From: Odiellus spinosus
Taxonomy: Eukaryota > Arthropoda > Arachnida > Opiliones > Phalangiidae
NCBI GenBank assembly: GCA_963920705.1
Contig: OY987225.1
Span: 31,061,538-31,125,537, forward strand
Length of the DNA: 64,000 bases
Reading direction: 5' to 3'
This document shows positions 12,812 through 62,558 of this stretch, piece by piece. Below the pieces are notes generated by a model. That model was not told the DNA's origin. It made no database searches and was given only the letters and a program-made list of their open reading frames with translations. The position numbers and the translations under genes are program-made. How positions within the stretch are numbered: the first letter of the stretch is position 1; each line of letters begins with the position of its first letter.

Positions 12812-12815
12812 TTAA

Positions 12816-13514: not shown

Positions 13515-15062
13515 TTTTCCTATTTTGTATTATATTATATTATAATATATTAATTTTTCCTATTTTATATTATATTATATTATAATATATTAATTTTACC
13601 TATATTATATTATATTATAATCTATTAATTTTACCTATATTATATTATATTATAATCTATTAATTTTACCTATATTATATTATATTATATTATTAATTTT
13701 ACCTATATTATATTATATTATATTATATTATTAATTTTACCTATATTATATTATATATTATTAATTTTACCTATTTTATATTATATTATATATTATTAAT
13801 TTTACCTATTTTATATTATATTATATATTATTAATTTTACCTATTTTATATTATATTATATTATTAATTTTACCTATTTTATATTATATTATATTATTAA
13901 TTTTACCTATTTTATATTATATTATATTATTAATTTTACCTATTTTATATTATATTATATTATTAATTTTACCTATTTTATATTATATTATATTATATTA
14001 TTAATTTTACCTATTTTATATTATATTATATTATATTATTAATTTTACCTATTTTATATTATATTATATTATATTATTAATTTTACCTATTTTATATTAT
14101 ATTATATTATTAATTTTACCTATTTTATATTATATTATATTATTAATTTTACCTATTTTATATTATATTATATTATTAATTTTACCTATTTTATATTATA
14201 TTATATTATTAATTTTACCTATTTTATATTATATTATATTATTAATTTTACCTATTTTATATTATATTATATTATTAATTTTACCTATTTTATATTATAT
14301 TATATTATTAATTTTACCTATTTTATATTATATTATATTATTAATTTTACCTATTTTATATTATATTATATTATATTATTAATTTTACCTATTTTATATT
14401 ATATTATATTATATTATTAATTTTACCTATTTTATATTATATTATATTATATTATTAATTTTACCTATTTTATATTATATTATATTATATTATTAATTTT
14501 ACCTATTTTATATTATATTATATTATTAATTTTACCTATTTTATATTATATTATATTATTAATTTTACCTATTTTATATTATATTATATTATTAATTTTA
14601 CCTATTTTATATTATATTATATTATTAATTTTACCTATTTTATATTATATTATATTATTAATTTTACCTATTTTATATTATATTATATTATTAATTTTAC
14701 CTATTTTATATTATATTATATTATTAATTTTACCTATTTTATATTATATTATATTATTAATTTTACCTATTTTATATTATATTATATTATTAATTTTACC
14801 TATTTTATATTATATTATATTATTAATTTAACCTATTTTATATTATATTATATTAATTTAACCTATTTTATATTATATTATATTAATTTAACCTATTTTA
14901 TATTATATTATATTAATTTTACCTATTTTATATTATATTATATTAATTTTACCTATTTTATATTATATTATATTAATTTTACCTATTTTATATTATATTA
15001 TTAATTTTACCTATTTTTTATTATATTATTAATTTTACCTATTTTATATTATATTATTAATT
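13515..15062. repeat. 33/38-bp AT satellite, about 45 copies
   Basis: Each unit has a constant part TTAATTTTACCTATT and then a run of TTATA pentamers. Most units are 33 bp; others are 38 bp because they hold one extra pentamer. The 33-mers and 38-mers lie in blocks. The first units (about 13,530-13,800) have irregular pentamer runs, and the last have CTATTTT changes and fewer pentamers. The unit is therefore a microsatellite nested inside a minisatellite. No gene is present. Confidence 0.95.
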
Positions 15063-15852
15063 TAATTTGTATTATTATATTTATGGAGACCTTCCCTTTA
15101 AGTTAATAAAACTTGATTCCATCTTAACGACATCAAACACGCTTGTATCAAGCCCTTGAAAACCTTTTTTTTTTTGTTATTACTTTAAACGTAATTTAAG
15201 CTTTTTCGAGTTGATTTTTGTAGCTTTATTCAAGGTCCTTATTTTAATGCGCGTTTAATATTATAAATTTAAATAATTACGCGCTAAATAATAATAATGC
15301 TCGAATTAGAATTGGGTAAAATTTAAAGGTCGCCAGTAAGTCTAAACCACTTGAAAAATAATATTAACGATATTTTTAGATTCAAGGTCTTACGTTCCTG
15401 TAATTATGTTATGTAAATTTAACTTTATAAAATAAATTTTACAAGACTCATCTATTTTAATATTAGCAATCTTTTCTATTTTATTTCTTAAATGCTGTTA
15501 AACAAATCTTACCTATTTCTAAGCAGTTAAATTATAATTATAATAAAACTAACTGAGTTCTTAGTAATTAAATATGTCTTGACAATCAATGCTTATTGAA
15601 ATGAATGATATCGAAAGCTATTTTACTTTCTCAAGTTCTTTTGTTTCCGAAACATTTCTAGCTAGTGACTAACGTTTATCATCGCTGTAGAGATAATTTC
15701 TACAGATAGAAAGAACTATTGTTTTTATCTAATGACCCCAAAAATAAGTTGCTCTAATTTTTAGTTTAAAATTTAAGAACAATAAAACCTTTGTCTTTAT
15801 TTTAACTTAATGTTTTCAATATTTATTTAGCACTATAGTGTTAATTGCTTCT
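15063..15852. other. gene-free AT-rich stretch
   Basis: No coding frame, array or terminal repeat is evident. Confidence 0.5.
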
Positions 15853-16262
15853 CGACCATTGGACAGAATTCCATTGGACAGAATCCCATTGGGCAGAATC
15901 CCATTCGATCCACAATCCCATTCAACCGATACGTTTTCGTAAACCAGAATCCCATTCGACCGAATCCCATTCGACCGACGTTCACAATCAGAAGTCCATT
16001 AACACATTCTAACCTAACCTAACCTAACCTAACCTAACCATTATCGGCTTAAATTCATCGGGACGCCCTTTTTGGTTTCGGCCCAATGGGAAATTCGGTC
16101 TATGGGGGATTCGGTTCAGCGGGATTCGGTTCAGCGGGATTTCGGTTCAATGGGAATTCGGTGCATTGGGCTCGGTCGGCCAAGATTCGGTTGATTGGGA
16201 CTATTTATTTTTTATTTCGGACCAATGGGAATTCGGTCCAATAGGATTCTATTCAATGGGTA
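15853..16262. repeat. ATTCGGTCCAATGGG word element with TTAGG core
   Basis: The left half (15,853-15,985) repeats words such as CCATTGGACAGAATCCCATT and CGACCGAATCCCATT. The right half (16,080-16,262) carries the same words reverse-complemented, such as AATGGGAATTCGGTCCAATA. Between them, 16,010-16,039 holds six AACCT units (the TTAGG repeat read on this strand). A similar design lies at 30,958-31,512. No open frame is present. The family is unknown to me. Confidence 0.7.
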
Positions 16263-39853: not shown

Positions 39854-41086
39854 TCATTTGTATTCATCTCCTTGAACAATGATTTTAAGAAATATATCGC
39901 AACGAAAACTATTGGCTAACTCCTGTCTGGTTAATTCGACTAACCTATGAATGCGTTCTCCTTTAGCTCCAATAACCTTTTTGACTAAATTGGGTCTATG
40001 GCATTGAATAGAAAGTGCGATACGTAACAAAGAAGGCGGTTCCATCTCCCACATTTCAATTTCGATACGAAGATTGTACGGAATTTCATCGCGTAACTCG
40101 TCTAAAAGATGGCCTCGTAAAGCCATAACTGCGATCTCCTGGGGTGTTTGATCTGTAACTACATTAGGATGGTACAGCCATGGGCTAGGTTTAGCTAAAC
40201 CCATCAAATAATCTGATATCTCGTAAATTCCATCCCCGTTTAAAGCCGACACGAGAAAAACTTTATCGAAACCTGAATAACTCAAATTTGAACTCGAGGG
40301 TTTAACAGAGTTAGTATCATTATTTTCTTCCATTTTTTTAGTTTTCTTAAACATTTTTTCAAGAATTTCAGCTTCATCGGGTTCAAAATAACTTAAAGCT
40401 TTAGTTTTCCCTACAACTTTGTTACCAACAACTCCACCAGTTAAGTTACGAACGACTGACAATAAAGAAGATTTTGATTTGATACAATCGCACTTATTCA
40501 TAACCAAAAAAGAAGTTTTGTCCTTGTTTTTCAAAAGTAAGTTCAACAGATTTGGGTCTAGTTTATTGCGGGTCCACTTGTTGGACGCATCGATAATAAC
40601 TCCGATAGTATCAGCGTGATCCAAGGATCTAACGGGATCAGATACTAAAGAGGGTTCTAGTTTATGTTTCATACCAATTTCAGGGGTTATTAAACCAGGA
40701 GTGTCTAGAAACACAATTTGAACGTTATCGGTAGTTTGAACGGCGTTAGTATTGAATCTTGTAGTATGAACTTTCTTCGATACCGAACACACTCGCCAAC
40801 CCATCAGTTTATTAGTTAGGGTTGATTTTCCGGCATTAGGAGCGCCAATTATAGCGACTCTGAGTAAACGGGGGTTTTGTGGCTGCACAGTTGGTTTCAA
40901 AGATTTTTGGTTTTGATATTCTTCTATCGTTTTTGGTATCGATGGTGTAATTGATGGTTTAACGTTTATACCATTGTCTAATCGGGTGCTTAGATTATAG
41001 ACACAAATTTTACTATTTGAAATAGCATTTCTGCTTATATGAAACCAAGGCTTAGTAGCCAAACTTCGGCTTAGTGAAAAAGTCAT
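39854..41086 (-). CDS. Eral1: Era-like GTPase, mitochondrial (ERAL1), single exon
   Basis: One intronless frame of 410 residues, slightly shorter than the 437 I recall for human ERAL1. The first 22 residues are basic with no acidic residue, fitting a mitochondrial presequence. The GTPase motifs are present: G1 GAPNAGKS (81-88), G2 within HTTR (107-110), G3 DTPG (128-131), G4 NKCD (197-200) and G5 SAL (280-282). A low-complexity insert (about 210-270) separates G4 from G5. The C-terminal KH domain has VIGAKGERIHRL with the GxxG loop at 373-376. ERAL1 chaperones 12S rRNA during assembly of the mitochondrial small ribosomal subunit, and bacterial Era binds 16S rRNA similarly. The start is the first ATG and retains the presequence. 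The gene converges with Gpr161 and lies upstream of, and parallel to, the transporter cluster on the same strand. A plus-strand frame at 40,419-40,619 is its shadow. Confidence 0.95.
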   Translation of the reverse strand: MTFSLSRSLATKPWFHISRNAISNSKICVYNLSTRLDNGINVKPSITPSIPKTIEEYQNQKSLKPTVQPQNPRLLRVAIIGAPNAGKSTLTNKLMGWRVCSVSKKVHTTRFNTNAVQTTDNVQIVFLDTPGLITPEIGMKHKLEPSLVSDPVRSLDHADTIGVIIDASNKWTRNKLDPNLLNLLLKNKDKTSFLVMNKCDCIKSKSSLLSVVRNLTGGVVGNKVVGKTKALSYFEPDEAEILEKMFKKTKKMEENNDTNSVKPSSSNLSYSGFDKVFLVSALNGDGIYEISDYLMGLAKPSPWLYHPNVVTDQTPQEIAVMALRGHLLDELRDEIPYNLRIEIEMWEMEPPSLLRIALSIQCHRPNLVKKVIGAKGERIHRLVELTRQELANSFRCDIFLKIIVQGDEYK

Positions 41087-42169
41087 ATTTCCTTTTCTTT
41101 AAAACAACGATTAGACCTATACGTTAGTTTTATAGCACAAATGGTTTATTTAATTTACCTATTATTTATTTCCTGTAGTTTCTGACACTAAAATACTTTG
41201 AATTAAACTAAAGCAAGGAGAGACGATGAGATAGAAATGATTGCGATGGTCGCGGACATTTTGAAAAACTATTGAGACCTCCTTGCGGACGTTGCGGTAA
41301 AAAAAGTGTAAGATTTTGGAAAGTCTCTCCCCGTGTGTGCAATACAATACAAAAATGTAGCTACTATATTTTCGATTTAATAAAATTAAATGTTGCGATT
41401 TTGACGTAAAAAAAAGGTTCTCTTTAATAAATTGGTTCTTACTAAGGCGGCCTCGGGCCTAAGCAACCTACCTAGCCTACTTTTGTTTCATTTGTAAATT
41501 AAGATTCCCACTAAACTTCTTTGTATTAAGCCAAGGCTTAAGTTTAAATCCAACAATATCATTACACCACGAACAATCATTTTCTGTAGAGTTAAATAAT
41601 CGTAATTAAATTACAATCATACCTTTGATAATCCAAGTAACTCCATTTTCCTTCGAAAACGGGCGTAAATTTCGACAAATAACTATTAATAACTAAACTA
41701 CGTACAAATACTAGGCTTACACCGCTATATTATGCGCGGGAACTGAAACAAGTCGGCTATCTTCATGGCACATTGCCGAACAAAAGAATTATTATGACAT
41801 TGACATTTGACAGCGATGATGAGTGAAAAAGAAAGATCACGTGATCTTATGAGGCGCATGCGCCATTTAGGAGCGGAAATAAAAAAAAGGTTTTAAATTC
41901 CTTTGGATAATAACTTTGAAAATATATTATTTAAAACTAGGCTTAGATCATTTTTAGGCCATTTTTTAAAATCCTAATTAAAAGAGTTAGATACCCGTCA
42001 TTTTAAAATCCTAATTAAAAGAGTTAGATACCCGTCATTTTAAAGCTGACCTATATTATGTTAATACCTGCACAGTTGAAGTATTTTTTCCAGTTTTGCT
42101 GTAAAGAGTAGAACGTCAAGTCATGGTCAAGTCATTGGAGTGAACTCAATGGGGAACGAATGTTGTCTA
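41087..42169. other. intergenic, Eral1 promoter side and transporter A 3' side
   Basis: No further gene is supported. The Eral1 promoter should lie just above 41,087 on the minus strand. A 37-bp phrase containing AATCCTAATTAAAAGAGTTA is tandemly duplicated at 41,964-42,000 and 42,001-42,037. Confidence 0.5.
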
Positions 42170-44044
42170 TTATTCACAGTCTTCCTTAGTTTGCAAGGGC
42201 TCAAAATGTTTTTTTAAAACGATTGAGGGATCATTGGGGAAGAGAAGAGTGATTGCGAAGGCAGTGGCGCTGAGACTGGCCACGAAGCAAAATGATCCAA
42301 GCCAGCCAACTGAATGTTGCATTATTCCAACAAGTTGAGCACCAATCAAGGAAGACACGGCCTAGCATAAATTTAATTGCATAAAACACACAATTACAAT
42401 AAAAAATTCATAATCATACTCACAGGTCCGGTAAAAACAATGCCATAGTTTGCTCCTACATTCTTAGGTCCAAAAGCTTGGGAAGTTGCTGTTGGTAGAA
42501 GGGCGAATAGTCCGGAAAAAGTAAAAAAGATGGCCAAAACCCATATGGTAAATGTAATCTTGCCACCGTAAGGCGTCGCAACGAAGGTCAACATAAGTAG
42601 CGTCAGGGAAAAACACAGCACCAGCATGCACCTCTTATAGCAAAATCTATCTTGCAATTGACCCCAAACAATGCGTCCAAGCGAATTGAATAATGACGCT
42701 CCTGAACCAACGATGGATAAAAACTGGTCATCGTGTATAAAAGTTTGACCGAAAGCCTGAGAATGAGTCGGATTAATGTTACTCTAGCTTATAGGCCCTG
42801 TCAAATTTTAAATCCTACCTTATACATGGTGTTTATGAACAAAATACATTGGGCGTTGAGGGCGAAAGTCAACCATAAATAGTAAAACTCCTTTTTACGT
42901 AGCATGGCTCTTAATCCGATACCATCAGCGGGATTTTTCTTACGTTTGTCCAAGCCGTTTAAGAGTAAAACTACCTTGTTGACGTCATTGTCTTTATCAC
43001 AATCACTATTCTTAATTTTAACTTCTGTTGTGTCCGTGTCAGAGGCTACGCTAGTAACGACGTATTTCGCCACCGTCCTAATAGGAGCTGGAAACAATAG
43101 GACTAGTCCAATTATCTCCAAGATGGCGTAAACTCCACCGAGTAAGAGAAAAGCCGATGGTACTTTGTCCAGGACTTCGTCTTCATCGAAATAACCGTCA
43201 TCAAGAGCGGGTGAAGTGTTGTTAGGATTGAGGTACACAGTTTGGACTTGGTTGAATACTAAAGCGCCCATTCCGTAACCACCAGATATGATACCATTAA
43301 CGAGGCCCTTGCGTTCGGGGAACCACTGTGTATGGTCAAGATTATAATGAGTAATTGGCTAGTTATTGCGTAGATATGCTAAAACACCTTCATTCCGTTG
43401 ACCATTGGTACCACGTACGCGATTCCCAAACCTATTCCGGATGTTAAACCGTAGAAAAAGGCTGTGAGGGCGAAACTGCATTGTATGCTGTAATAAGTAG
43501 CCATGGTCGATGCGCTAAAAGTTGAATTTAAGTACTTTGTAAGAAGTAGCTCATGGTACAAGTAATATTTCATTGTTTAGTTTGTGTTCTGCTGGCCATT
43601 GAAACTTAAATGTTCGCGAACCTTTTCGTAAACAAGCAAAACATAAATAGAAATAAAACAATATCCTTTACCTGAACATAAAGCATCCAATAAGACAAGT
43701 TTTCCTGCCACCTATTTTCTTTTCCAATATACCACCAATCAACATCAACGATCCTTGTCCAACGTAAGCGAGGGCGTTAATCCAAATGGCTTTGCTGTAA
43801 TCTACGGATTCATCGACTCTTCGATTCATGTAAGAAGTCATGTAAGTTGTCATGTTTCCGAACGTGAAAAATGTTCCTAAATTAAAATACTAATTACTAG
43901 TTTGTAATTATTAATTTAACTTTAGTTTTAGTTTGAAAATTCTTCGCAAAACAAAATTATAGAATGAATTTTAATCTTGCCTAAAGTCAAATGAATCAAG
44001 AAACCGGCGCACACGGCCAAGATACCCTTCAAGTTCGAACCCAT
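42170..44044 (-). CDS. OFA-type major facilitator A, six exons
   Basis: Coding exons in transcript order are 44044-43981, 43876-43672, 43514-43388, 43325-42819, 42756-42424 and 42361-42170. They total 1428 nt, 475 residues plus stop, with the frame kept throughout. Intron 1 has a GC donor (TTTAG|GCAAGA); the others are GT-AG. About 12 membrane segments are expected. Diagnostic motifs are GGILEKKIGGR (69-79, the loop 2-3 MFS signature), WFPERKGL (133-140), GRIVWGQLQDR (328-338, loop 8-9) and FGPKNVGANYG (396-406), typical of the oxalate/formate antiporter (OFA) family. The central loop (about 225-290) is long and charged. An acceptor (CAG at 44,066-44,068) 21 bases above the ATG suggests a 5' leader intron. 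The substrate is unknown; family members carry small organic anions. It is the least intron-rich of three tandem paralogues. Confidence 0.85.
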
Positions 44045-44065
44045 TGTCTATATTAAATCAGGGAT

Positions 44066-45308
44066 CTGAAAACACTTTAAATAATGCCATCAAGACTGTA
44101 ATTCATATCCTAGTAAGTACACAACCGAGTAAAGACTACAATCATAAAATATTTGATGTCGTTAACCGATGAACAGATACCTCGAGAGTCCACAGGGATA
44201 TCTGATCAAACCAAAATTATTATTTAAGAACGTATTACATTTCGATAAATCTTCTTCCTACTTGGAAAGATCTTTGTTATCACGAAATTTTATTGGTTTT
44301 TATTTTATGTTTACTCTTGAAGTCTGAGAACTTGTTAGTTTTTGTAGAAAATTAGTCGGGGTAATTGGGCGATCTATCTGTTGGCGCCTGTAAATGTGAT
44401 AGTGCTAAAGTAATTACTTAATTCTGTACGTATTTAACAATACCAAAGGCTGTAATAAGTTACTTAATAGTGATTAACACTTCGGATGGCCAATTCAATT
44501 AGATCGCGAGATTTAGAGAGTTGTTATTTCCTAGCTGAGATTACAATTGGAAAGATCCCGAGGGGATCAGACACTCTTGAATTCGCTGTAAACCTGAATT
44601 CACCGAGTTTAGCTTTGAGTTCGAACTCTTATGAACTCTGAGTTCTGCTTTGATAGTGCGAAGAGTTAAAAAATTTTGTACACTGAGTTCGGGAGTGTCA
44701 ACCCCCTTGAAAGATACATCCTTAATTAAATCCATTGACACTAATCTTCACTAAATTCTTCGTCTTTACTAGGTTTGTACGTACTTTGATTGGATTATTA
44801 CCGTTTTAAGCGGTGTTCTATTTTTGGATAAAATGGTCTTCGTCTTTCGTCAATCTTTGATCGAATATAATCCAAGTGATCGTAAAAATTCAATCGTAGT
44901 GTGATATAATATAATTTAGCTCGAATCTATATTTGATTTAACCACAAATTTTTTTTTCTAAGTTTGTTTTATTTGATATCGCTTAACTTTTTCAGCTTTT
45001 AAACTAACATTTGTTTAGAAAGATGTTTAAATACGCTATGTTCGTACTGAAGAAGCTAACTATATTTTCTTTATTTTACAGATTCATTCCGAAATAAGTT
45101 AGATTGCGTACAGAATAAATTTAAAGGATAAATGAAAACTGATGAATCATTTTCTTGATTTTGCCTTTTTTTTTTTTTTTTTTTTGAATCTAAGTAATCG
45201 TAAACCTATGCAAAATATCAAATCTTAAAGGTTACAATATTTGGAACACCAAGCACGCGAGGAAGAAAATTTTGAATTTCCCTAATCGTGGAATCCAGCC
45301 AATAGTTG
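44066..45308. other. intergenic between transporters A and B, part 1
   Basis: This probably holds the leader intron and promoter of transporter A. The segment 44,550-44,715 is a second copy of the dispersed repeat at 1815-2010. No other gene is seen. Confidence 0.5.
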
Positions 45309-45315
45309 ATATAAT

Positions 45316-45653
45316 CAGAAGCCGATGAAACCCTCCTTTGAAGTCTATTACTCCCTGGTCTTGTCTACCCCTCTCTGTATGGGTTAGTTTCAAAAAGCGC
45401 GATTCGTACGCCTCCTAACGGTAGATATTTTCGGAGCGGGAGTTCGTCGAGCGAATATCTCTAGCAGCCTTGGAGTTCGTCAAAAAAACGTCGTCGTTTG
45501 TGGAGAGAGAGAATTTCCAATTTTTCGTAGACAGGAGGGTATGAAGTAGGACCCCGCCGATCTCGTAATATTGTGAATTTTACCCATACAGAGAGGAGCG
45601 CTATATGGAACATTAGAGTAGTAGACTTCAAAGGAGGGTTTCATCTACTTCTG
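45316..45653 (+). mobile_element. MITE, family CAGAAG, copy 3 (7-bp TSD)
   Basis: This 338-bp copy begins CAGAAGCCGATGAAACCCTC and ends GGGTTTCATCTACTTCTG. ATATAAT flanks it on both sides (45,309-45,315 and 45,654-45,660), the same target word as copy 2. Its interior matches copy 2 closely, including CTACCCCTCTCTGTATGGGT. Confidence 0.93.
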
Positions 45654-45660
45654 ATATAAT

Positions 45661-47368
45661 AAAAGAACTTGTGGATGCGACATCTTGTTCGAATGTTGCT
45701 TACTACGTCACGAAATCACGCGGTGTTAAGGTTATACGTGGCAGTTATTTCCGTTTTCATGAAACGCTGGGGGCCAGACGGCTTAGATGTCACTAGAGCT
45801 ACCACGGATATAGAAAAAAATAAGCTTAAGACATGCTCGGTGCTCACGAGCGCTATGAGATTGACAAGCTGATAAATAACTGAATTTATCTACCAGGCCT
45901 TAAAATGTATGGTTTTGTATTCACTGTTTAATAAAAATGGTGGTCGTCGGACCTAGCGACTGGACAATCTAAGGCCACGTGCGCGCGGGAACGCCGCTTA
46001 TTGGCTGGTTCTTGTTTGTAATTTGAAACTCGGAGCAGACTACAAAGTAAGACGTTTAAAGAACATTTTCTTTCATATTTTAGGATTGCTTCAACAATTT
46101 AAGTCGTTATTTTTCTAAAATTTTCTAAAACAAAGATTTAGAAAAGGCAAAGATTATAATTTTTCAGTTTTCATTTATCCTTTAAGATTTTTTCCCATTT
46201 CTCCTTTCGTGTTAAAAACTTTGAACTAAGGACTAATATTTGTAATTCATTTCGAAATAAATCTATATTGTTATACATTATTTAATGAATGGTTAGCGTG
46301 TGTTAAAATGGTTGCTATGCCTAGCGACTTTAACTATTTTAGGTTATATATCCATCTAAAAAACGTCTATTCCATTGTTTTTCATGGTTAATACATTTAC
46401 GAGAAACTGTTTTTTGGAATTAATTTTAATCGCATGACGATGATCTTTTTGATTTTCGATTCATTACGATCGTGATAAGTCGAAAATTTCGGTTTAATAA
46501 TCGAAGGTTTTGTATAAAAACTGCCGTAAATATTTGCCAGAGATATTTAATTTACAAAATCCAAGACTTTTGTCATTTTTACTTCGAATGACCAGTTTAA
46601 TTTCGTAGCTATGATGTCATTTTAAGTCTCAAATAAACACGTGTTATTTAGACTGAGAAAAAAGTACCAGAGATAGGAGTATTACACCTATATCCTCCTA
46701 TATGTACCAGATTCGAAAATGGATTCTCTGATATTTCCAGACTACTTTTGTTATATTTTATTTTTTTACAATAAAATTGAATTTTCCCCGATTTTTTCAA
46801 ATAAATATGATTTTTCCTGTGATTTGATTCAAAATCATTTCCAGGTTTTCTTTGTAAGAACCGTTAGGCCTACATGGGTCAAAACTAAATTTACCGAAAT
46901 ATCTGACGATCTAAAAACCTTTAACACGTATTTATGGATGACCCCTCTCTGGCCAATGTCTAACCGACAAATACTAGATTGAATTCTCGGAATCTGGGAG
47001 TTTTAGGATAATTTCACAACGTCCCTGACCCAATTTCAAAGTTTTTGGATAATCCCATGACCCAATTTCAAAGTTTTTGGATAATCACATGACCCAATTT
47101 CAAAGTTTTTGGATAATCCCATGACCCAATTTCAAAATACCTGAATTTTTCCCAGTTTTCCAGATGAGTTACAACTCTGAAATATTTATTTTCGGAGAAG
47201 CTCAATCTGAAATTCATCTTCAACATTAAAAAAGTGAAGAAAACTTTTAATAACATTTTTTTTTTTAAATAAAACACGATAAAAACTTGAACTTTGAAGA
47301 AATATGATATTTACAGTAAATTGAACATAATTTATGTCGGTTTTTTCTTGTTAAATAAATACCTTTTA
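45661..47368. other. intergenic between transporters A and B, part 2
   Basis: No gene is supported. Plus-strand frames at 45,669-45,872 (67 residues) and 46,719-46,982 (87 residues) match no family I know. A 32-bp tandem repeat lies at 47,029-47,140: the word CCCAATTTCAAAG starts at 47,029, 47,061, 47,093 and (changed at its end) 47,125. Confidence 0.5.
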
Positions 47369-50300
47369 TCAGCTTATTAGTTCCAATTCGTCTGGCATGA
47401 ATACGTTTATAATGAAAGCTACAATTATAGGTCATAAATTTAAATGTAAATTAAAGGTCAAAGGTTAAATTGTGGCTTACCTATAAAGGTAAACCCGCTA
47501 ATTACAAAAAATACTCCATCGAAACCTATCTTGCTCATTATAATTTGTATGACTATGGCTCCAAGTATGGAAGAAATCGCCTAAAATTAAGAATTATAAA
47601 AAGAATTATCTATAGAATTTTGATGTTAAAGACAATTACTTACTGGTGCTGTAAATACCAGTCCAAAATTAGTTCCCGCAAATTTACTCCCAAAACTTAA
47701 ATCGGTTGCTGTCGGCATGATTGGAAAAATACCGCTGAAAAAGAAGAAAGACAGCAAGACCCAGATAACGAAGGTAACCTTGCCACCGTACGGTACAACC
47801 ACGAAACTCAACATCAAAGCCGTTAAGGACAACGAGATGACTATGGCCGCTACCTATAAACCATCAACAAATCACTATTACACGAGCAATTACCCCAGAA
47901 CTAAAAATATAGAACTTTGCGTACCTTGAAGTTTGACCAATCCTGAATCCGACCAAAAACAATCCTTCCCAAACAATTGCAAATACTAGCCAGAGATCCA
48001 ACTATGGACAAGAAGCGGTCATCGCGAATGAAGAGTTGTCCGTAGGTCTAAAATTCGATTAAAAGTCAAATTAATCCTTAAAGGGAGAATGAAACCTAAT
48101 TTTTTAAGCCTATTTTTAGGTTTGAAGGTCATCAATACCTTGTAGTAAGTGTTGATGAACTGAATACACTGACAAATCAGCGCAAACGTCATCCAAATGC
48201 CGTAAAATTCTTTTCGTTTTAACATTTGGCGTGGACTCATCTCTTTGGGTACCAAACTATAAACATTCTTATTGGATTGAAGTACGCTCTTAGTTTCAAT
48301 CGTGTATAAATATCCGGTTGGAACTTGACCTTTAGCGTTCTTAAGAAGATCCGATTTGACCTGAAGTTAATTAAGTATGGAGTTAAATATTAATAATTGT
48401 AATATTTAAAATCTTACATTCGAATTTTCCTTGTCAAAAGGCGATGGAAACAGCAGCATTATTCCTATTAATATTAAGGCACCGTATAAGCAACCGAGCA
48501 AGTAAAAGACACGAGGTATTTTGTCCAAAACTTCATCGTCGTAAAAGAACCTATACCAATTTATTTATCTAACATTTATATAAATTTTAATTAGAATAAA
48601 TTTAATCATTTACCCGTCTTTAGCTGGTTGAATATTACGTGGATTTAGAAAAGCTGTCTGAACTTGGTTAAACAACAAAGGTCCCAATCCGTAACCCGAT
48701 AGAATGATTCCATTGGATAATCCTTTGTTTTGAGGATACCACTATGGATTAAAATATAATTAAGATTAACAAAAAAAAATCGGGAATATATTAACTTACT
48801 TTCATACCAACTGCTAAGGGTGGTACGTACGCAATACCAAGTCCCCAACAAGCGAGCAAACCGTAGACCAACGCAAAAACCACGAATCCAAACTTAATCA
48901 AGATTCCACTTAATGCTATCGAACCACTGGTAAAGAAAAACTTTATACCATACCCGTAGCTTCGTACAAAAGGCCAGTTTTTACTTACCAAAAGATGAAT
49001 CCACCAATGAAACAAGTATATCGTCCACCAATCTTACGTTCCAACAATCCACCGACAACCATTAATGAACCTTGTCCCAAGTACTGCAAAGCGTTAATCC
49101 ATATGGCCAAGCTGTAAGTAACGTCGAAACCAGCTCGATTCTTTAAGTAGGACATGATGTACGGGGTCATATTCCCCAAGGTGAAAAAATGACCCAAAGT
49201 CAAGTGAATTAAAAAACTTCCAGTGAGGGTTGCTATCCCTTTGATTTGCATCGTAATACTAGTGCCTTCGCTTTCGACTGGAATTGGTCCTAAATAAAGT
49301 GATTCTGGTTTCTGATTGGACGAGGAGAATTCCGACGCTTTCTAAAACGATTATTAAAATGAATGGAACTTCGTGAAATGAATACAGAATCACTAAGATG
49401 ACAACGAACCTGATGTTTAGTTTCAACGTTTTTCGGGAACGAAGACTTTAGTTTGTCACGAGGTTCGTCTAACGGAACGTCTTGAAAACACCCAACCTTA
49501 CTCTCTTCTAGTTCAATATCATTATCATACGCCGCATTTGATTTGTCGGGTATGATAGCCCTTCCGTTTACAAGATCCTTTTTTTAATGAAAATAAAAAA
49601 AAAAAATCACAGATTAAAAAAGAATATTGAAAAAGGCTTAAGTCGCGTTTTCAATGTTTTTGAATATTTTTCTTATACGCCATTTAAAGGACATATCTGC
49701 TCATAGCCTAACTTTGACTGTACAATTTATGGTTAAAGTCGTCTGCTTAGCTAGAAAAGAAGGCGACTTTAAAGGGGATTTAACGTGTTTTTAAGCTTGA
49801 TTTAAGGATCTGTTTGGAAAACGCCGCCCTAAGATAGGAAATGAATAATTTTGGGTTCTTATCCAGATATGATTATACTACCAATTCTACCTATCATGGC
49901 AGCACGCTGAAAGTTAGATAACTGGTTATCTGAATGGGCTGCAAATCTGAGGTTTAAATTTATCTCGCCTAATTACTTTTCAGCACGTATTAAGTAAGAT
50001 TTGAATCTAATTGAACTAAAAGTACGTCATAGAGATACGTGTAAACCTAGCTTTATATCTTCTCAGGACTCAAGGTCGAATTCAAGGTATATTTTTTTTA
50101 TTCTCAATTAACTTACGTGCTTTTTGAAACTATTATATTTTAGTCGAAGAAGTGTTTGCATTGAAGCTGAAACTGGGGCGGATTAATACATTATGCTAAT
50201 CATCATAAAGAAAAAGGGTTACAAGGTTGAATTACGCATTTTTTATCTGACATACTGTTATCTTTGATTAAGTTTCGTTTTTAGTTACGCAAAAACTTGA

Positions 50301-50373
50301 TTTTCGTTAATAGAAGTCCGCCAACTCCCCCGAAAAAGGAAACGATGAAGAAAAATAAACTTACTTTATTCAT
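47369..50373 (-). CDS. OFA-type major facilitator B, eleven exons
   Basis: Exons in transcript order: 50373-50365, 49577-49410, 49341-48989, 48926-48800, 48741-48614, 48550-48418, 48360-48139, 48047-47925, 47853-47644, 47580-47481 and 47418-47369. They total 1623 nt, 540 residues plus stop, and every intron is GT-AG. Unlike its neighbours it has an acidic N-terminal extension of about 89 residues, spread over a 3-codon first exon, a 168-nt exon and part of exon 3. Motifs are GGLLERKIGGR (156-166), WYPQNKGL at the start of exon 5, GRIVFGRIQD (407-416) and FGSKFAGTNFG (475-485). Initiation at Met90 would give a protein matching paralogues A and C, so an alternative start is possible. The C-terminus is short, ending ELELIS. 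An acceptor CAG lies 26-28 bases above the ATG, implying a leader intron. The substrate is unknown, probably a small organic anion. Confidence 0.84.
48079..48130 (+). mobile_element. solo TTAA-type MITE end in an intron of transporter B
   Basis: The 91-nt intron 48,048-48,138 contains TTAAAGGGAGAATGAAACCT followed by AAGCCTATTTTTAGGTTTG. That is a MITE left end joined directly to the inner AAGCCTA word. It occupies most of the intron, so the intron may have grown by insertion followed by deletion. Confidence 0.6.
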
Positions 50374-50398
50374 GGTGTTCTAGTAATTTATTTCAGAT

Positions 50399-50948
50399 CT
50401 GTAAAAGAATAGTATTTAAATCTATCAATAATAAAGTGATAGCTTTATCATGAAATTATTTTTACAAATATGAATATACATATTTAGTGATGGAAGGTAT
50501 ATTTTTTTAATTAAGAATAATTACTATTAACTTCTCAACACAAGAATACTGTAGTTAAATACACTATCGGAATGCCTAAGGTAATTAATAATACGTCAAT
50601 TACTTTCTCTTAATTGAATTCTAAAATGAGATTTCCCATTTTTTGCACAATTCGCAATCATTCCCCTGTTTTAATTCGCGAAGAATCACTTCACCTTTCC
50701 TTTGAAAACTAGTTTTGAATATTTTACGAGATATCCTTACAGATTTGGAACTTTAAACGGTAATTTTTAATTATTATAGATCAAAGATTAAAACTCATTA
50801 TAAATTCCAATGATAGAATTGTTCCTTATGACTAATATCAAAAGTCCACTTAATTCCATAAAAGTAAACAACGCCCCGTAAACAATTTAAATTGGTTTAT
50901 TCACACTTGATTTTTTTGATCGATTCCTTATCGTTTAACTTGCCTAAT
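50399..50948. other. upstream region of transporter B
   Basis: Likely leader intron or promoter region. It is AT-rich with no exon. Confidence 0.4.
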
Positions 50949-51239
50949 CAAGAAGGATCAGATAAGGAGAGGAAAAGTGGGAACGGCGCGGCTCCTACTG
51001 CGTCCGCCTAAACTCCCACTCTGGGAGAACGGGGGACAGACGGGGGTAGAGATGCTTCGTGGTAAATTGTTGTCACGTGGGTAAAACGAATCCTTTATGA
51101 GACGCGCTAGCTAGCGACCAAGTGACAACAGTTTACCTCGAGAATTTCCTATCCCCCTTTCCACCCGAGTGGGAGGTTGGCTCTTCTCTCTCTAACTCAA
51201 CGCAGCCCCACTTTTCCTCTCCTTATCTGATCCTTCTTG
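50949..51239. mobile_element. MITE, family CAAGAAGG, 7-bp TSD
   Basis: This 291-bp element is markedly less AT-rich than its surroundings. It begins CAAGAAGGATCAGATAAGGA and ends TCCTTATCTGATCCTTCTTG; the inverted repeats extend through GAGGAAAAGTGGG. GCCTAAT flanks both sides (50,942-50,948 and 51,240-51,246). The interior holds TTGTCACGTGG and a second inverted pair, AAATTGTTGTCAC and GTGACAACAGTTT. CA...TG ends and a 7-bp duplication are shared with the CAGAAG family. Confidence 0.9.
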
Positions 51240-51279
51240 GCCTAATCTACCTGTAAAAAAATTTACAAGCAAATTTTAA

Positions 51280-51588
51280 ACTGGGAAAATAGGCTTAGCT
51301 GGATTCATGGAGATTCTGAATTTCTTAAAATTGAAGAGTCAGCGACCAATGAGGAAAGGTCCGTCGTTAAGGCGAGATCTCCACGAGTCTTCCCATATAC
51401 CATTGGATTTGTCTCTGACCCTTCAACGCGAAGAGATTCACGTATCTCCAGGAATCCAGCTAAGCCTATTTTTCGGTAATTTTATTTCTAGGTTAATATC
51501 TGTCTGTAAATATCTTTTACTGGCATATTAGGACTATTAAAACGATAAAAAAATCTCTCGTTAGGTTGGTATTCTCCGTTTAACTTTA
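51280..51588. mobile_element. MITE with inner palindrome, worn ends
   Basis: The inner inverted pair is AATAGGCTTAGCTGGATTCA and ATCCAGCTAAGCCTATTTTT (about 51,289 and 51,453). The right end GGTATTCTCCGTTTAA resembles the TTAA-type terminus. Right-half sequence recurs at 8458-8530. It has no coding capacity, although a chance 74-residue frame crosses it. Confidence 0.6.
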
Positions 51589-52440
51589 ATTTGAATAAAA
51601 ATGGAACTTACATAACATCCAAAAATTAATCTCCTTTTTTGAGGGGACTCGATTTTTGGCAAATATTGATATGACTCGTACAACTTTCCTCCGCCAACTT
51701 AATCCAATTGCGTGGAACTCGTAATATTAAACTATATATATATAATGAATGTGAAAGAGTCAGATGCTTGTGAAAATAGCAACACGTGACTATTGACAAA
51801 TATGTGTAGCGTACCTTGAAAAAAATGAAAAGCATATCGAATGAAACGATGTAGATGATATATGACTACCAAAGAGAAAAATAGGGTTTTGATAGTACTG
51901 GATAATTAACTATAGCATGGAGTATTTGAAACTGATTTAAAAAGAACAATTAGATTTAATTTTTCACGCTAAATGATAGTTGAATTTGAGTACGTGTGAC
52001 TAAAGAATGACCTCAATATAAAATTAAAGGTTAGTATTTGGGTTAAAGTGATGTTGTCGGCTTCTGATGTTCATGGTAATTTCAAATATAAAATAAACTT
52101 TCCAAAATTTATCTGGTACTAGCCCTTTAACCTCAACCTAAATGGTGCTTGTTATTTTTCAAGGATGCTCTCTCTATCAGAGACAAATAGCCTAATCATC
52201 ATAATATTGCAAATTATATTCGCAATAATATTTTGAATGACAGTTGATTGATATAGAAACATATATTGGGGTGTCCCCTCTTGTCTAAAAATATTCTATA
52301 TATTTGAAATTAATTTATGGTAAGATTCAATAAGTTTCATCTCTAAGGAGGAGCTAAATACAGGTAGGGATAAAACCTGACACCTTAACACTTCTAGCTT
52401 GGAAGATCAGAGCCTCAAACCATGCTTAGACAAACTGATA
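51589..52440. other. gene-free stretch between transporters B and C
   Basis: AT-rich; no exon is supported. The word GTCGGCTTCTGATG near 52,057 resembles the end of the CAGAAG family but stands alone. Confidence 0.45.
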
Positions 52441-52444
52441 TTTG

Positions 52445-53590
52445 ATGGTCTGAGATTAACGTCCTAATAAAATATTCTTTGCTAATTTTTATGAACAATT
52501 AGAGAAATATAAATGACCTTATGACCTTATAAAGTTTTAGTTAATGGTCTGTGAATTACTTTACACCCCTGAAAAATATTCTTTGCCAATTTTTATTGGA
52601 CAAAACTGTCTAAAACTTCGCGTAATGAACAATTAGAGAAATATAATTGACCTTATGACCTTATAAAGTTTTAGTTAATGGTCTGTGAATTACTTTACAC
52701 CCCTGAAAAATATTCTTTGCCAATTTTTATTGGACAAAACTGTCTAAAACGTCGCGTAATAAACAATTAGAGAAATATAATTGACCTTATGACCTTATAA
52801 AGTTTTAGTTAATGGTCTGAGAATTACTTTACACCCCTGTAAAATATTCTTTGCCAATTTTTATTGGACAAAACTGTCTAAAAACTTAACGTAATAAACA
52901 ATTAGAGAAATATAATTGACCTTATGACCTTATAAAGTTTTAGTTAATGGTCTGAGAATTACTTTACACCCCTGTAAAATATTCTTTGCCAATTTTTATT
53001 GGACAAAACTGTCTAAAACTTCACGTAATAAACAATTAGAGAAATATAATTGACCTTATGACCTTATAAAGTTTTAGTTAATGGTCTGTGAATTACTTTA
53101 CACCCCTGTAAAATATTCTTTGCCAATTTTTATTGGACAAAACTGTCTAAAACTTCACGTAATAAACAATTAGAGAAATATAAATGACCTTATGACCTTA
53201 TAAAGTTTTAGTTAATGGTCTGTGAATTACTTTACACCCCTGTAAAATATTCTTTGCCAATTTTTATTGGACAAAACTGTCTAAAACTTCACGTAATAAA
53301 CAATTAGAGAAATATAATTGACCTTATGACCTTATAAAGTTTTAGTTAATGGTCTGTGAATTACTTTACACCCCTGTAAAATATTCTTTGCCAATTTTTA
53401 TTGGACAAAACTGTCTAAAACTTCACGTAATAAACAATTAGAGAAATATAATTGAACTTATGACCTTCTAAAGTTTTAGTTAATGGTCTGTGAATTACTT
53501 TACACCCCTGTAAAATATTATTTGCCAATTTTTATTGGACAAAACTGTCTAAAAACTTAACGTAATAAACAATTAGAGAAATATAAACGT
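52445..53590. repeat. 134-bp tandem repeat, about 8.5 copies
   Basis: TATTCTTTGCCAATTTTTAT recurs at 52,577, 52,711, 52,845, 52,980, 53,114, 53,248 and 53,382, so the period is 134 (once 135). The first copy lacks about 24 bases. Each unit also holds TGACCTTATGACCTTATAAA and GTCTGTGAATTACTTTACAC. Copies are nearly identical, so homogenisation is recent. Confidence 0.95.
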
Positions 53591-54526
53591 CATTTCTGTA
53601 CCTTTGACAATGCATTCAGGAAGGTTGATCCACTGTAATTAAAATTGAAACCCCGACATACTACACAACGTTTTCGACTGATAACTGCGTGCGAATGATA
53701 AGTACCTTCTCGTCGACATAAGTACAGATATGTATGAAGAATATGTACAGGTGTTCTCCCAACATTATATTTGATAACTGGTAATTTGTAATATTTAAAA
53801 AAAATTCCCTGGGGTTTTACTGCAAATTTATATATTACGTCATTCGACGCAATTCTTAATGTAAGAATAAGTTTATGCCCCTGGTCCTTCCGTATACCGG
53901 TTCTAACCCTTTTTCTTTTTATATATATAAAAAAATGGATCCACTGCAGAGTTAAGCATTTTATCCAATCAGGCGCGTTCTAAACAGTACGTGATAAAAA
54001 TATCAATTTCATAACAATTTGTAAGTTTCAAGGGCTTTTTTTATTACATTTTACCAGGAAATAATGACTTAAATAAAAAGATTCACGCGTGGCAGAGTTT
54101 TTATAACGGTTAATGCAATTTTATTAATTGCTTTAACCATTATGACGTCATTTAAAACTATTAGAGGGGAGCTCAAACTTCTAAATTAGGGGCAAGGCCA
54201 ACTTGTTTATCAAAAACAACACTGTCGCCATCTATCAGGACCTTAATCACTAACCAACACTATCCATAAAAGTAAATTGCAACCAAAAAATGCAACATTT
54301 TAAAATAAAATGTTAATTTTCGAATATCTTACCTTCATATGCGAATTAAAAAAAATATGAAAATATATATATTTGTATATATAATCATAATTAATTAAAA
54401 TAACTGTATTAAACTGAATATAAAAATAAATTCCTTGGTAAAGAAAACGAATTGAATACGAATATAATCATTAAAACATGAATACAATTTGAAGTAAAAT
54501 TGTATATATTTTTTTCAGATAGTTTA
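53591..54526. other. 3' flank of transporter C
   Basis: No gene is visible. The 3' UTR of transporter C should lie at the upper edge of this stretch. No clear polyadenylation signal was identified. Confidence 0.4.
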
Positions 54527-57500
54527 CTAAGTTTTTGTGGCTCTGATTGATTCCAGATTCCATGGCATGAAACAAGTGATGATCATGCCTAGAATTACAA
54601 AACCCTCAATTTTGTTGTTATCTTTACTAATAATTTAATACCTTAAGTATCTCAGAGCAAAAAGTATGGGCATGCGAAAATAAATAATAGAATACGGTAT
54701 ACCTAAAATTGCGGTTCCAGACATGACCGTAAAACTCCAGTGATAATGTAAAGCTTCAACTACAAATTCGATAAGGAAAGCACCCAGAACTGACCCAACT
54801 GCCTAAAAAAACACGTTAAAATTGAATTCAAAACATTTGTCTTATAGTTCTGACGTATTTTTCCCCGAATTTATGTAATGACGTTTTCTAAGATTATTTA
54901 GAATACTGAAGACTACGTGAATTCAAAGAGATATAACCTTTGAACTCCCAACTTTCCTGATCTAAGCGGCTTATTTTTTTCAATTTACTTGACCTTCTTT
55001 GCGATTAATTTTAATATTCATACTTATTTGACCTTCCCCTGACCTTAAATTCATTAAATTTGTTACTTTAACCTTTAATTATTTAGAATACTGAAGACTA
55101 CGTGAATTCAAAGAGATATAACCTTTGAACTCCCCAACTTTCCTGATCTAAGCGGCTTATTTTTTTCAATTTACTTGACCTTCTTTGCGATTAATTTTAA
55201 TATTCATACTTATTTGACCTTCCCCTGACCTTAAATTCATTAAATTTGTTACTATAACCTTTAACCCCTTAGATATACGATTTTAATTTCTTAAATACTT
55301 GAATTGTACTTACAGGGGCCGTGTACAGAACTCCGTAGTTCAATGAGGCGTACGTTGGTCCAAAGGCTGACGCTGTGGCTGTAGGCAAAATAGAAAAGAT
55401 CCCGGAGAATGAGAAGTAAATCAGAATCACCATGATGGCGAAATACGCTTTAGATCCGGGTGAACCGTGACCCGGAATGTATTGGGCTCCGACCAAGGCT
55501 TGAGTGAAGATTGCCAGACAAGCCAAGATACTTAACATGCTGAACTGCGTTCGAAAACAACGATATTTAATTATTATTCACGATTAAAAATTGCGAGGCT
55601 TAACCCGGGTTCGACGAATACCTTGTACGTTTTTCTGTCGGTGACAAAACCCCATAGGATTCTTCCGCCACAATTACATACTGAAGCCAAGGCCCCAACA
55701 ATCGATAAGAAACGGTCATCGTAAATAAATGTCAATCCGTAACTCTGCAATTTGAAAAATGACAAGGTTGTAACAGATTAAAATTTTTGAAGTGAATGGA
55801 ACACTTTGAGAAATTTGTGATTTTCTATGTTAAAGACCGTAACAACCTTGAAAGAGACTACTTCGTTCAGTGTACTCATCAAGTACTTAAACTTAGACCA
55901 TCTCCTCTGTTGATCTAAGTTGTGGATTACATGCCTACATTGAGCGATTTCAAGTTAAAAGCATTACAACTGCATGTTGTTCATTGGCATAGGCGCGTGG
56001 GGTAGGGCAGTCACATTATTTTATGAGATCCATTTCATTGCCACTTTTTTCTCAAATTTTACGACACAATTTTTCTAAAATTAGACCGAGGTCTTCGCCT
56101 AGTTTTTTTTTTTAAATATTAACTTGGCGTTTTTTTTTTTTTTTTGTCTCAACACCTTTAATATAATAGATAATTATCTTTCAAGGTTGTCGATAGTTTT
56201 CAGTAATTAGTCTACGTAGTGCCTAGTGAACGTGCTTAAACAAAAACTCATCCGTGTCTCTGGATCTCTGCCAATCGTACTCGACCCACATTTTATTTAA
56301 ATTCATCGAAGAAACAAAAGAAGAGTTAACTAACCTTGTAATAAGTGTTAACAAATTCCACGACAACTGCGGACAGCGCGAATGTAAACCAAATCATGTA
56401 GAATTCTTTTCGCCACACAACTTTCTTGATGGACAAGTCCTCCAACTCGGGTTTTAGGTCGTCCATCTCGAGTTTTTCCCTGGATTCAGACACCATGGTC
56501 ATGGGCTTGGGGGTTTCGGGTGCTTGAAACAACAAAGCTATCGCGACGGTTGCGATGGTGGCGTAAATCAGGGCCAATTTCCAAAAAACTCGTTGAACTC
56601 CTTGCAATAAGTCTTCATCGTCGAAATAGCTACGAAATAAAAGACACTTTAGTACAATTTTAGGCTTAGCCTTGGTCCTAAACAATACATCTCGTTAATT
56701 AGTATAAAGTGATGTTGTCAGTGATTTCTCAAGTATTACTAATAAGGCATTGGTAATTACTAGAAAGCAATTATCACTCAGTTTAAATTAAGTTTTGACT
56801 CGCTTTACGATTGTACCACTAAAGATTTAAGCCTAACGATGAATTTGTTAATGCTAACTCACCCTTTGGAAACTCCTTCGTGGGCTGGTGGTTTATTCAA
56901 TGGATTAAGAATATAAGTTTGCAAAGGAGAGAAGATCATAGCGCTTAAACCATATCCGGAGAGAACCAAGCCATTTGCTAAGCCTTTTTTATTGGGAAAC
57001 CACTAGAAAAATTAAGTTTTAATTAAATCTAAACCAAAATCGCGGAGTAATTAGTTAATTACCTTCATGACTTCGTGTACTGGAGCAACGTAAGCAATAC
57101 CAACACCCAAATAAGCGAATAAGCCATAAGATAAAACCACAACTTCGAATCCGATGTCAATGGTCACTGACGTTAAAGCCACAAAACCACTAAAATAGGA
57201 GACAATTATTTTGCAAAACAATTAATGTTGTTAATCGTAGTTAAAGGGATAATGAAACCCCACAACAAGAAATTATATAATCGTTTAAATAGGCCTAATC
57301 CAGCAGTAGATTATTTTAGCCATAATTTAAGAGTATTCAAATCGATTAAAAATAACTTTTTATCAGAGTCTAATATCTCTTGAATGTTTGAATTAAATTT
57401 TAAATAACCTTGAAATTTTCAAAAACTGTTGGGATTAAATTATAATTTGTTACGGACAATTTGTTTTTAAAATACCCTTTGTCTTGAAGTAATTTATGAT

Positions 57501-59142
57501 TGTAGGAAAACGAGTTTTTGAGAAATGGAATTTTAAGTACGATTTGAGGTAAAACGAGTGAATATTTAAAAAATACAAATGATTCGCTAATTTAAAACGA
57601 ATACGAAATTGCTGGACTTAATTTCGTAATTAACGTACAGCTCAATTGTGATCATTTTTGTGGAATTTTTAGACCTTTCACAAGGCGAAACATTTCCAGT
57701 AAAACCATGTAGTTGGTAATCCTCAATTATTTAAGGTACTAGAATCAAGGCAACTATCTAGTTTCCATGTAGTTTGGGTGTAAATAATAAGCGCCTACAG
57801 CTGGCAAAACGAATTTTTTAATTAAAAACGTTGCATAACGTTGTAGCTAAAATATTTTGTTTTCCACCAGTGAAACAATATTTTTGTTGTTATTTCCGGA
57901 GAAAATTTGTTAATTTGGATTGAAAAATTAAGCTAATTTAATAACGAAACCGATACTTCATTAGTCTCATAAAAATTGTTTAAATATTTATACGAGACAT
58001 AGGTGGAATATTTATTAGATATTTTAGCAATAATTGATCTACGAATTTTTAAATAAAAATTAACTTAGCCTACAGTTTTTTTATCGTTGATTAATTAAGC
58101 TTAACTTTAAACAGACGAAAAGATCTAACATATGTTTTTCTCTAACCTTTATCTTATAAATTAAGTTTCAAGGGTAATATTTTTAGACCTATAAAATTGC
58201 CAAAAATTCTATACGATGGATAATAAAATTTGTTTTGTTTGACTTTCTTTTTTTTGAATATGATTAAAAAGGAATTTTTCCTTAACAAAAATAAATTTGT
58301 TTATGCGCGGGAAAATTGTTAAAATGGCGAAAAATTATATTATTCTTGTAGTTTCATTAACTTCGTTGGAAAATAAAAGTTTGCAATGTGTACCCAGGTT
58401 TTTCAATTATGTATTGTTCCTATAACTGCGGTTGAGTCAACAGATTAAATTAAATCTGATTTAAAACAGACTTTAAACTACAAGAAACAAGGGCTTATCT
58501 GAAGGAAAATTATTTGCATAATGTTTTTATCTGTCTTTTAGCCGCGCCTTCTATCTGCCAACCAACCGCGAAAGTATTTTTAAAACGTAAATTCATTTAA
58601 AGAATGGATTAAAACTATTGTAAAATGAAAGGATTCAATCGACAGTTTGAGAATCGGTTAACCCGTAAAAGTTTGAACAGATATAATTCAGATCTGTTAA
58701 AAGAGATTGAATAGACAGATTATCGTGTAAACAAGTTTTATCCGCTAAATTATTTGCGCAATATCTAAAACAGTTGGTTATATATGTGGATAAATATTAG
58801 CACTAAAATTCCAACAATTCCTGAATAAAAACATAAATATTAACAAAAAATATAAAAATTATCTCACCAATAAATAGAACAACCAATAATAGCCGTAATT
58901 CTGGATCCAAATCTTTTACACAAGTAACCACCGAACCACATAGAAGTTCCTTGTCCTAACTTGGAAGTGGCCGTAATCCAAACCAACTTCGAATTACCAT
59001 TATCGGAGTTCACTTTTGTTCGAATGTAAGAAGCGATGTAGGGACCCATATTACCCAAGGTATAAAAATTACCCAACGAAATTAAACACAAAAATCCGCC
59101 TAAAACGCACAAGTATCCACGCACATTATCGTAACGTCCCAT
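54527..59142 (-). CDS. OFA-type major facilitator C, eight exons
   Basis: Exons in transcript order: 59142-58868, 57189-57063, 57002-56863, 56629-56335, 55744-55622, 55544-55314, 54802-54703 and 54588-54527. They total 1353 nt, 450 residues plus stop, and all introns are GT-AG. Motifs are GGYLCKRFGSR (71-81), WFPNKKGLANGL at the start of exon 3, GRILWGFVTDR (306-316) and FGPTYASLNYG (381-391), the OFA-type pattern. The first membrane segment (about 8-30) follows a short cytoplasmic start, with no N-terminal extension. The 127-nt second exon and the 123-nt and 100-nt exons match exons of paralogue B in length and phase. An acceptor (CCCTCAG) 10 bases above the ATG implies a leader intron. Intron 1 (1.7 kb) is the longest of the cluster. 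The transport substrate cannot be told from sequence. Confidence 0.85.
54893..55264. repeat. 185-bp direct duplication in an intron of transporter C
   Basis: The segment starting ATTATTTAGAATACTGAAGA at 54,893 is repeated from 55,078 with only a few differences (an added C, and TTACTTTAA versus TTACTATAA). It lies in the intron 54,803-55,313 and has not spread to the flanking exons, so it is a recent tandem duplication. Confidence 0.92.
57190..58867. other. intron 1 of transporter C
   Basis: AT-rich, with no exon. A solo TTAA-type MITE end, TTAAAGGGATAATGAAACCC, lies at about 57,241. Confidence 0.55.
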
Positions 59143-60299: not shown

Positions 60300-60685
60300 A
60301 ATTTTTCAATTCCCTGAATTTCCCTGGTTTCGCCAACAATCTTTGGGCATTTTTCTTGACAAAAATCCAAATAACTGTAGCACATTCCTCTTTCTTAACA
60401 TCATCTGAAATTAGTCATCTTTACAAGGATACCAGTTGTAAAACAGTTTCCTGACTTTTCGTTGACCTTTGAGCCCAATTTCCTGACTTTTCCCTGACCT
60501 TTCCAGCCCAATTTCCTGACTTTTCCTTGACCTTTCCAGCCCAATTTCCTGACTTTTCCCTGACCTTTCCAGCCCAATTTCCTGACTTTTCCCTGACCTT
60601 TCCAGCCCAATTTCCTGACTTTTCCTTGACCTTTCAGGCCAATTTCCTGACTTTTCTACGTTTTTCCTGACCCGGGCAGCCCTGT
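60300..60685. repeat. CCCTGAC repeat with a 32-33-bp array
   Basis: TTTCCTGACTTTTCCCTGAC and CTTTCCAGCCCAA alternate about six times at 60,447-60,655. The flanks (AATTCCCTGAATTTCCCTGG, ending near GGGCAGCCCTG) match the dispersed copy at 24,085-24,230. It looks like a dispersed element whose inner phrase was amplified in tandem. The repetitive minus-strand frame across it is not a gene. Confidence 0.85.
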
Positions 60686-62100: not shown

Positions 62101-62102
62101 AA

Positions 62103-62558
62103 AGGCGGAAAAATTCAAAGGACGGCGAAGCGCAGTTTTTTTGGCGCCATCTTAGTGTTCATTTTAATTTACTTTTAATTTTAACTTACAATTACGCGAA
62201 ATTAAAATTTAATTAAGTCTTTCTCATCACGTCACTTTTGTAATTAAAAATCGGGAAAACGAAACTTTTTTTAATGTAACAATTAAGCCTTCAATCTTAA
62301 GCCTATTTTATTTTTCGCAGAATGACTGAAAGGCGGAAAAATTCAAAGGACGGCGAAGCGCAGTTTTTTTGGCGCCATCTTAGTGTTCATTTTAATTTAC
62401 TTTTAATTTTAACTTACAATTACGCGAAATTAAAATTTAATTAAGTCTTTCTCATCACGTCACTTTTGTAATTAAAAATCGGGAAAACGAAACTTTTTTT
62501 AATGTAACAATTAAGCCTTCAATCTTAAGCCTATTTTATTTTTCGCAGAATGACTTGC
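62103..62558. repeat. 228-bp direct duplication, identical by eye
   Basis: AGGCGGAAAAATTCAAAGGA starts at 62,103 and again at 62,331, and the 228-bp copies read identically up to TTTTTCGCAGAATGACT. The last copy runs into a hairpin, TTTTTCGCAG with CTGCGAAAAA, at about 62,541-62,574. The unit holds GGCGCCATCTTAG and TCATCACGTCAC. Confidence 0.93.

Follow-up and report, generated by a model that had tools for sequence, protein, structure and literature searches.

What do three adjacent transporter genes of the arachnid Odiellus spinosus carry, and to which branch of the major facilitator superfamily (MFS) do they belong? The window, the whole stretch of 64,000 nucleotides that was analysed, covers positions 31,061,538-31,125,537 of contig C1 in an assembly of 443 Mb and 286 contigs. 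A first-pass annotation had described within it, at 42170-59142, three same-strand, intron-rich paralogues of the OFA type, set them apart from SLC16, and suggested an unexplored role in the handling of oxalate, formate or other small acids. Models rebuilt from splice sites agree with those limits and place all three genes on the minus strand, position 42170 being the end of the gene A stop codon and 59142 the start of the gene C ATG. The gene models listed here are based on splice sites and reading frame, with the E-value of the match to profile TIGR00890 appended:

42170..44044, minus strand: gene A, 6 exons (43981-44044, 43672-43876, 43388-43514, 42819-43325, 42424-42756, 42170-42361), 475 aa; E 3.2e-63.
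47366..49251, minus strand: gene B, 9 exons (48989-49251, 48800-48926, 48614-48741, 48418-48550, 48139-48360, 47925-48047, 47644-47853, 47481-47580, 47366-47418), 451 aa; E 1.9e-56.
49252..49583, minus strand: candidate N-terminal extension of gene B, two open stretches for which an in-frame join is possible, by eye.
54635..59142, minus strand: gene C, 7 exons (58868-59142, 57063-57189, 56863-57002, 56335-56629, 55622-55744, 55314-55544, 54635-54802), 452 aa; E 2.6e-61.

Genes A, B and C are intact, intron-bearing nuclear genes. They possess 5, 8 and 6 introns, respectively, and the reading frame stays intact across every exon join, as had been claimed; all 19 introns end in an AG acceptor and 18 begin with a GT donor, the other (gene A intron 1) having GC. 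Two consecutive stop codons lie within the last exon of gene B (47366-47418), and one more splice is possible close to the 3' end of gene C. The lengths given previously were 475, 540 and 450 residues; that of A holds, C encodes 452 residues, and B encodes 451 when counted from the Met that aligns with its paralogues. The figure of 540 probably has its source in the upstream stretches (about 49290-49583 and 49252-49341), where no ATG is visible by eye. Pairwise identities are 51.9% (A and B), 39.2% (A and C) and 43.1% (B and C). Among the signature phrases reported for the trio, W(F/Y)PxxKGL, GRIxxGxxxD and FGxxxxxxN(Y/F)G were found by eye in all three proteins, while the loop 2-3 phrase GGxLxxRxGxR fits C alone, A and B having K at its seventh place.

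Contamination was considered and rejected on the grounds of the many introns, the 35 Mb contig and an adjoining GTPase open reading frame. That frame (39854-41098, minus strand, 414 aa) contains a GTPase domain, with a KH match that falls under its cut-off, and is consistent with a mitochondrial ERA-like GTPase, the name ERAL1 being our inference. On the plus strand, a 333-aa open frame at 37304-38305 resembles, by eye, the C-terminal portion of a rhodopsin-type GPCR, and a repeat with long open frames of the LLILPILYYI type occupies 14421-15004, the GC content being 0.21 over 12001-16000. Tandem repeats are found around the trio: a 134-bp unit in 8.1 copies (98% match) between B and C at 52494-53587, a 186-bp unit present twice in tandem (98% match) in the last intron of gene C at 54893-55264, a 33-bp minisatellite in 6.4 copies at 60447-60656, some 1.3 kb upstream of C, with frames that read as SGNWAGK-type repeats, and a 228-bp unit in two tandem copies (100% match) at 62101-62555.

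The animal host named in the first-pass annotation agrees with contig C286 of the same assembly, a mitochondrial genome of 16,074 bases in which COX1 was identified by profile and the other genes by eye from their translations. One strand carries nad2, cox1, cox2, atp6, cox3, nad3, nad6 and cob and the opposite strand nad5, nad4, nad4L and nad1, an arrangement that we take to be the arthropod ground pattern. In insects and crustaceans, a tRNA-Leu gene lies between cox1 and cox2. In C286 these two frames abut, and none of 27 ARAGORN predictions, some surely false, places a tRNA-Leu between them; those for tRNA-Leu are at 6637, 9672 and 9924 (anticodon taa) and at 8986 (tag). This suggests an arthropod outside Pancrustacea, with a chelicerate or a myriapod as the likelier host. 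The mitochondrial contig belongs to the same organism, given that stretches 92-96% identical to it occur on a nuclear contig (C17, 13.7 Mb) as copies of up to 2.6 kb (L030-L033, L035, L036). The several long mtDNA copies may mark C17 as an unusual chromosome.

Beyond the window, the family profile and the proteins B, C and D (not A) were used as genome queries, which brought the family to at least five genes:

C1:27.935-27.940 Mb: gene D (L041), 9 exons, 470 aa; tblastn family match over several exons.
C11:12.252-12.265 Mb: gene E (L044), partial model of 433 aa with one further exon seen; tblastn family match over several exons.

Gene D is thus some 3 Mb from the tandem trio on the same contig, and E is on another. 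These were the only two of 12 loci tested by tblastn to carry the family across several exons; L025, L039, L040 and L046 gave isolated weak stretches only, and no family stretch was detected by tblastn in L008, L021, L023, L042, L043 or L045, L021 being SLC16 by profile. The L043 locus (C8:18550000-18558000) harbors two similar adjoining genes that appear, by eye and from weak profile matches, to be MFS-like of another kind, and next to them lies a long simple repeat with several open frames. Of the lineage-specific expansion that had been proposed, the duplicated family is supported, with five genes found. Identity across the five proteins ranges from 31.2% (A and E) to 51.9% (A and B). Three introns are common to all five paralogues, at alignment columns 93 (phase 2), 136 (phase 0) and 327 (phase 0). 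Introns at columns 182 and 368 occur in B to E and are absent in A, one at column 445 occurs in A to D with the last modelled exon of E stopping at the same spot, and the GC-AG intron at column 25 belongs to gene A alone. Given these shared positions, descent of A to E from one intron-bearing gene would be the simplest account.

Prokaryotic relatives were sought in a single scan of GTDB genomes with two peptide patterns from a five-member alignment, a design that misses relatives lacking the patterns; 128 pattern matches yielded 68 confirmed relatives. Their best-segment identity was 21-40%, with the upper values coming from short segments, and by BLASTP none of the 68 was more than 29% identical across at least 350 residues. 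The latter result bears on the idea that the genes were acquired recently from bacteria and then duplicated, which the abundance of OFA-type genes in prokaryotes and the long stem of the animal clade (see below) would favor. With no closer relative recovered by the two-pattern scan, and with paralogues that are 31-52% identical and have introns in common, we regard such an acquisition as very improbable.

With respect to family, the top profile for A, B and C was NCBIfam TIGR00890 (oxalate/formate antiport family), followed by that of SfMCT (NF049980). Chance matching is excluded by the E-values listed above together with near full-length coverage of the 377 profile positions (4-377 in A, 4-377 in B and 2-373 in C). 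TIGR00890 was also the best family for D and E; the scores of A to E (214, 192, 208, 166 and 151 bits) are below its curated cut-off of 374.85, as are those of the two prokaryotic relatives scanned, L060 and L061 (244 and 242 bits). These two lie above the SfMCT cut-off of 320 (377 and 421 bits), and A to E lie below it (194, 147, 173, 118 and 103 bits). The SfMCT profile is a poor discriminator here, since it gives 116 bits to an SLC16 gene of the same genome compared to 118 for D and 103 for E. Membership in the MFS was apparent from PF07690, for which A, B and C scored 122, 90 and 91 bits against a Pfam gathering score of 33.4, and the closest PDB chain was that of OxlT (8hpj; E 4.1e-18, 1.8e-13 and 6.2e-18, respectively), with SfMCT (6g9x) second.

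Might A to C instead be a divergent branch of SLC16? Weak PDB matches near 1e-3 to MCT8 (A) and MCT10 (C), with none for B, and a pocket triad held in common point in that direction. However, the SLC16 profile TIGR00892 gave 20.9 bits with C only; it was not among the matches of A and B at E up to 0.1, nor among those of D and E at E up to 0.001. A control, one of two SLC16 genes assembled from the same genome and joined by hand, gave the reverse pattern, TIGR00892 scoring 220 bits, SfMCT 116 and TIGR00890 68. Moreover, DGGWGW, which we take to be the SLC16 motif of TM1, is present in both of these SLC16 genes and in none of A to E. For a phylogeny of 71 rows, in which A to E were the only eukaryotic OFA sequences, 62 of the 68 prokaryotic relatives were kept by length (360-520 aa), L059, L063, L080, L104, L108 and L115 being dropped. 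The five animal proteins formed one clade (100/100) on a long stem, and D grouped with E (100/100). Support was weak (84/58) for the grouping of gene C with D and E instead of with A and B, and the tree does not recover the three tandem genes as a separate clade. In the unconstrained analysis, SLC16 joined SfMCT, away from A to E, a join flagged as possible long-branch attraction, but a tree constrained to unite A to E with SLC16 was not rejected (AU p 0.189, lnL 9.55 lower). An SLC16 origin appears improbable. The placement of A to E on the OFA side of the MFS is supported, with the profiles carrying the separation (TIGR00890 at 214, 192 and 208 bits against none, none and 21 for SLC16 in the trio) and the tree as weak evidence. 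On this point the first-pass annotation is upheld by the profiles.

The substrate is a separate matter. At the sites of SfMCT Y119, N276 and R280, A to C align with Tyr, Asn and Arg, and at that of Y331 with Phe; D and E have Ser, Ser, Lys and Val at the four sites. The SfMCT paper describes R280 and Y119 as contacting lactate and N276 as positioning R280. In the same work, R280A lost both lactate binding and transport, N276A and Y119F did not transport, and Y331F had wild-type-like activity. The Tyr/Asn/Arg triad also occurs in OxlT and in the two assembled SLC16 genes, and its residues are kept in 61, 62 and 62, respectively, of the 62 prokaryotic relatives, a sample that was drawn by patterns of the animal proteins and may omit the closest kin of OxlT. 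Being common to OxlT, SLC16 and the prokaryotic relatives, the triad points to a carboxylate carrier and not to which one.

The view that A to C are true oxalate:formate antiporters like OxlT draws on the name of their top profile, on OxlT being the closest solved structure, and on their matching OxlT residues R272, N268, Q66, Y124 and Y150. The OxlT study described R272 and K355 as indispensable for oxalate and as conserved across OFA, K355Q and R272A as non-functional, and Q34 and T38 as "strictly conserved" (PMC10070484). With the animal proteins, N268 and R272 (TM8) are kept in A, B and C and replaced by Ser and Lys in D and E, and all 62 prokaryotic relatives have both. The K355 site (TM11) is Pro in A to C and Gln in D and E, such that Lys is absent from all five; in the 62 relatives it is Tyr in 43, Trp in 15, Phe in 3, Leu in 1 and Lys in none. 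Likewise, Gln34 and Thr38 (TM1) are Phe and Gly in the five animal proteins, none of the 62 relatives carries either residue, and the Y35 site is Phe in A and B compared to Tyr in all 62. To judge from this alignment, OxlT may itself be the odd one, with K355, Q34 and T38 each missing in 62 of 62. The specific OxlT model TIGR04259 gave 83, 66 and 83 bits with A, B and C, far under its cut-off of 335. Absence of Lys355, the only point against oxalate among the pocket residues, makes the oxalate reading of A to C doubtful, and with the TM1 replacements and the TIGR04259 scores we give it little credence. The oxalate or formate role put forward earlier is thus not supported.

We lean instead towards A to C being MFS carriers of the OFA/SfMCT side that are, most likely, proton-linked monocarboxylate (lactate-like) porters. 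By an alternating-access mechanism they would move small monocarboxylates together with a proton; the TM8 Arg would grip the substrate carboxylate, the Asn one turn earlier would position this Arg, and the TM4 Tyr would assist in holding the carboxylate. Confidence in the lactate-like reading is lowered by the occurrence of the same triad in OxlT and SLC16. A hydropathy scan produced overlapping segments and was not used; 12 helices, a membrane location and a physiological role are presumed for A to C, and both substrate and coupling are read from residues alone. The SfMCT paper describes its transport as proton-coupled and pyruvate as not transported, the latter suggesting that specificity shifts easily. 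Together with the TM11 Pro and TM1 Phe, which are unlike both OxlT and SfMCT, this leaves some room for a substrate of A to C that is some other small acid or metabolite, not lactate-like, but the retention of the carboxylate-binding triad makes this the less probable account. Whereas A to C keep the residues of the carboxylate site, D and E may be a changed branch with a different substrate. We suggest tentatively, from the replacement of Tyr and Asn by Ser and of Arg by Lys and from Gln at the Lys355 site, that this could be a substrate class new for OFA/SLC16.

OFA-type genes are already known from animals, and the trio joins those of Schistosoma, Echinococcus, the spider mite and squid; to call their role unexplored was too strong. 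Schistosoma mansoni has two pairing-regulated "oxalate-formate antiporters," one localised to testicular lobes (data not shown; PMC3820750), and an OFA group is downregulated in Echinococcus granulosus, its function being "not fully understood in parasites" (PMC7350322). An OFA gene assigned by best TCDB hit is among 20 cyclosporin-responsive MFS genes of Tetranychus urticae (PMC5647426), and a squid light-organ transcript was labelled OFA by BLAST (PMC6172772). OFA members are also on record for Candida (PMC2636803), as are OFA/MCT-like proteins for Plasmodium (PMC1088945). Among the matches listed from the open-licence literature, none was a study of transport by an animal OFA carrier. Animal carriers of this side tend to receive the label "oxalate-formate antiporter" from similarity alone. 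For the family of A to E that label appears, from the residues, to be mistaken; the trio, which coexists in one genome with ordinary SLC16 genes, resembles a monocarboxylate porter, and if it does function as such, the same annotation in other invertebrates would be affected. The earlier interpretation is thus partly supported, the side of the superfamily being correct, the substrate unsupported, and the kind of gene already reported, arthropods included.

Compared with known systems, the flatworm proteins (Smp_036470, Smp_135020 and that of Echinococcus granulosus) belong to the same family by annotation, and the Tetranychus urticae gene and the squid transcript by published assignment. The Toxoplasma carriers TgAPC1/2 (TgAMT1/2), which are presumably akin to OFA, are eukaryotic pyruvate/monocarboxylate carriers like those proposed here, and differ in being apicoplast organelle carriers of a protist. 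SLC16 shares with A to C membership of the MFS, the TM4 Tyr and the TM8 Asn/Arg, as judged by two genes of the same genome, and differs from A to E in its TM1 DGGWGW and its profile (21 bits or none). OxlT of Oxalobacter formigenes (8hpj/8hpk), the nearest structure by sequence, has the TM8 Asn/Arg of A to C, but its Lys355 is Pro in A to C or Gln in D and E, and its Gln34 and Thr38 are replaced. With SfMCT, a bacterial L-lactate/H+ symporter, the profile scores of A to E are under the cut-off and D and E are without the triad; Y119, N276 and R280 are nevertheless matched in A to C, and SfMCT, which has Cys at the OxlT K355 site, is like them in having no Lys there.
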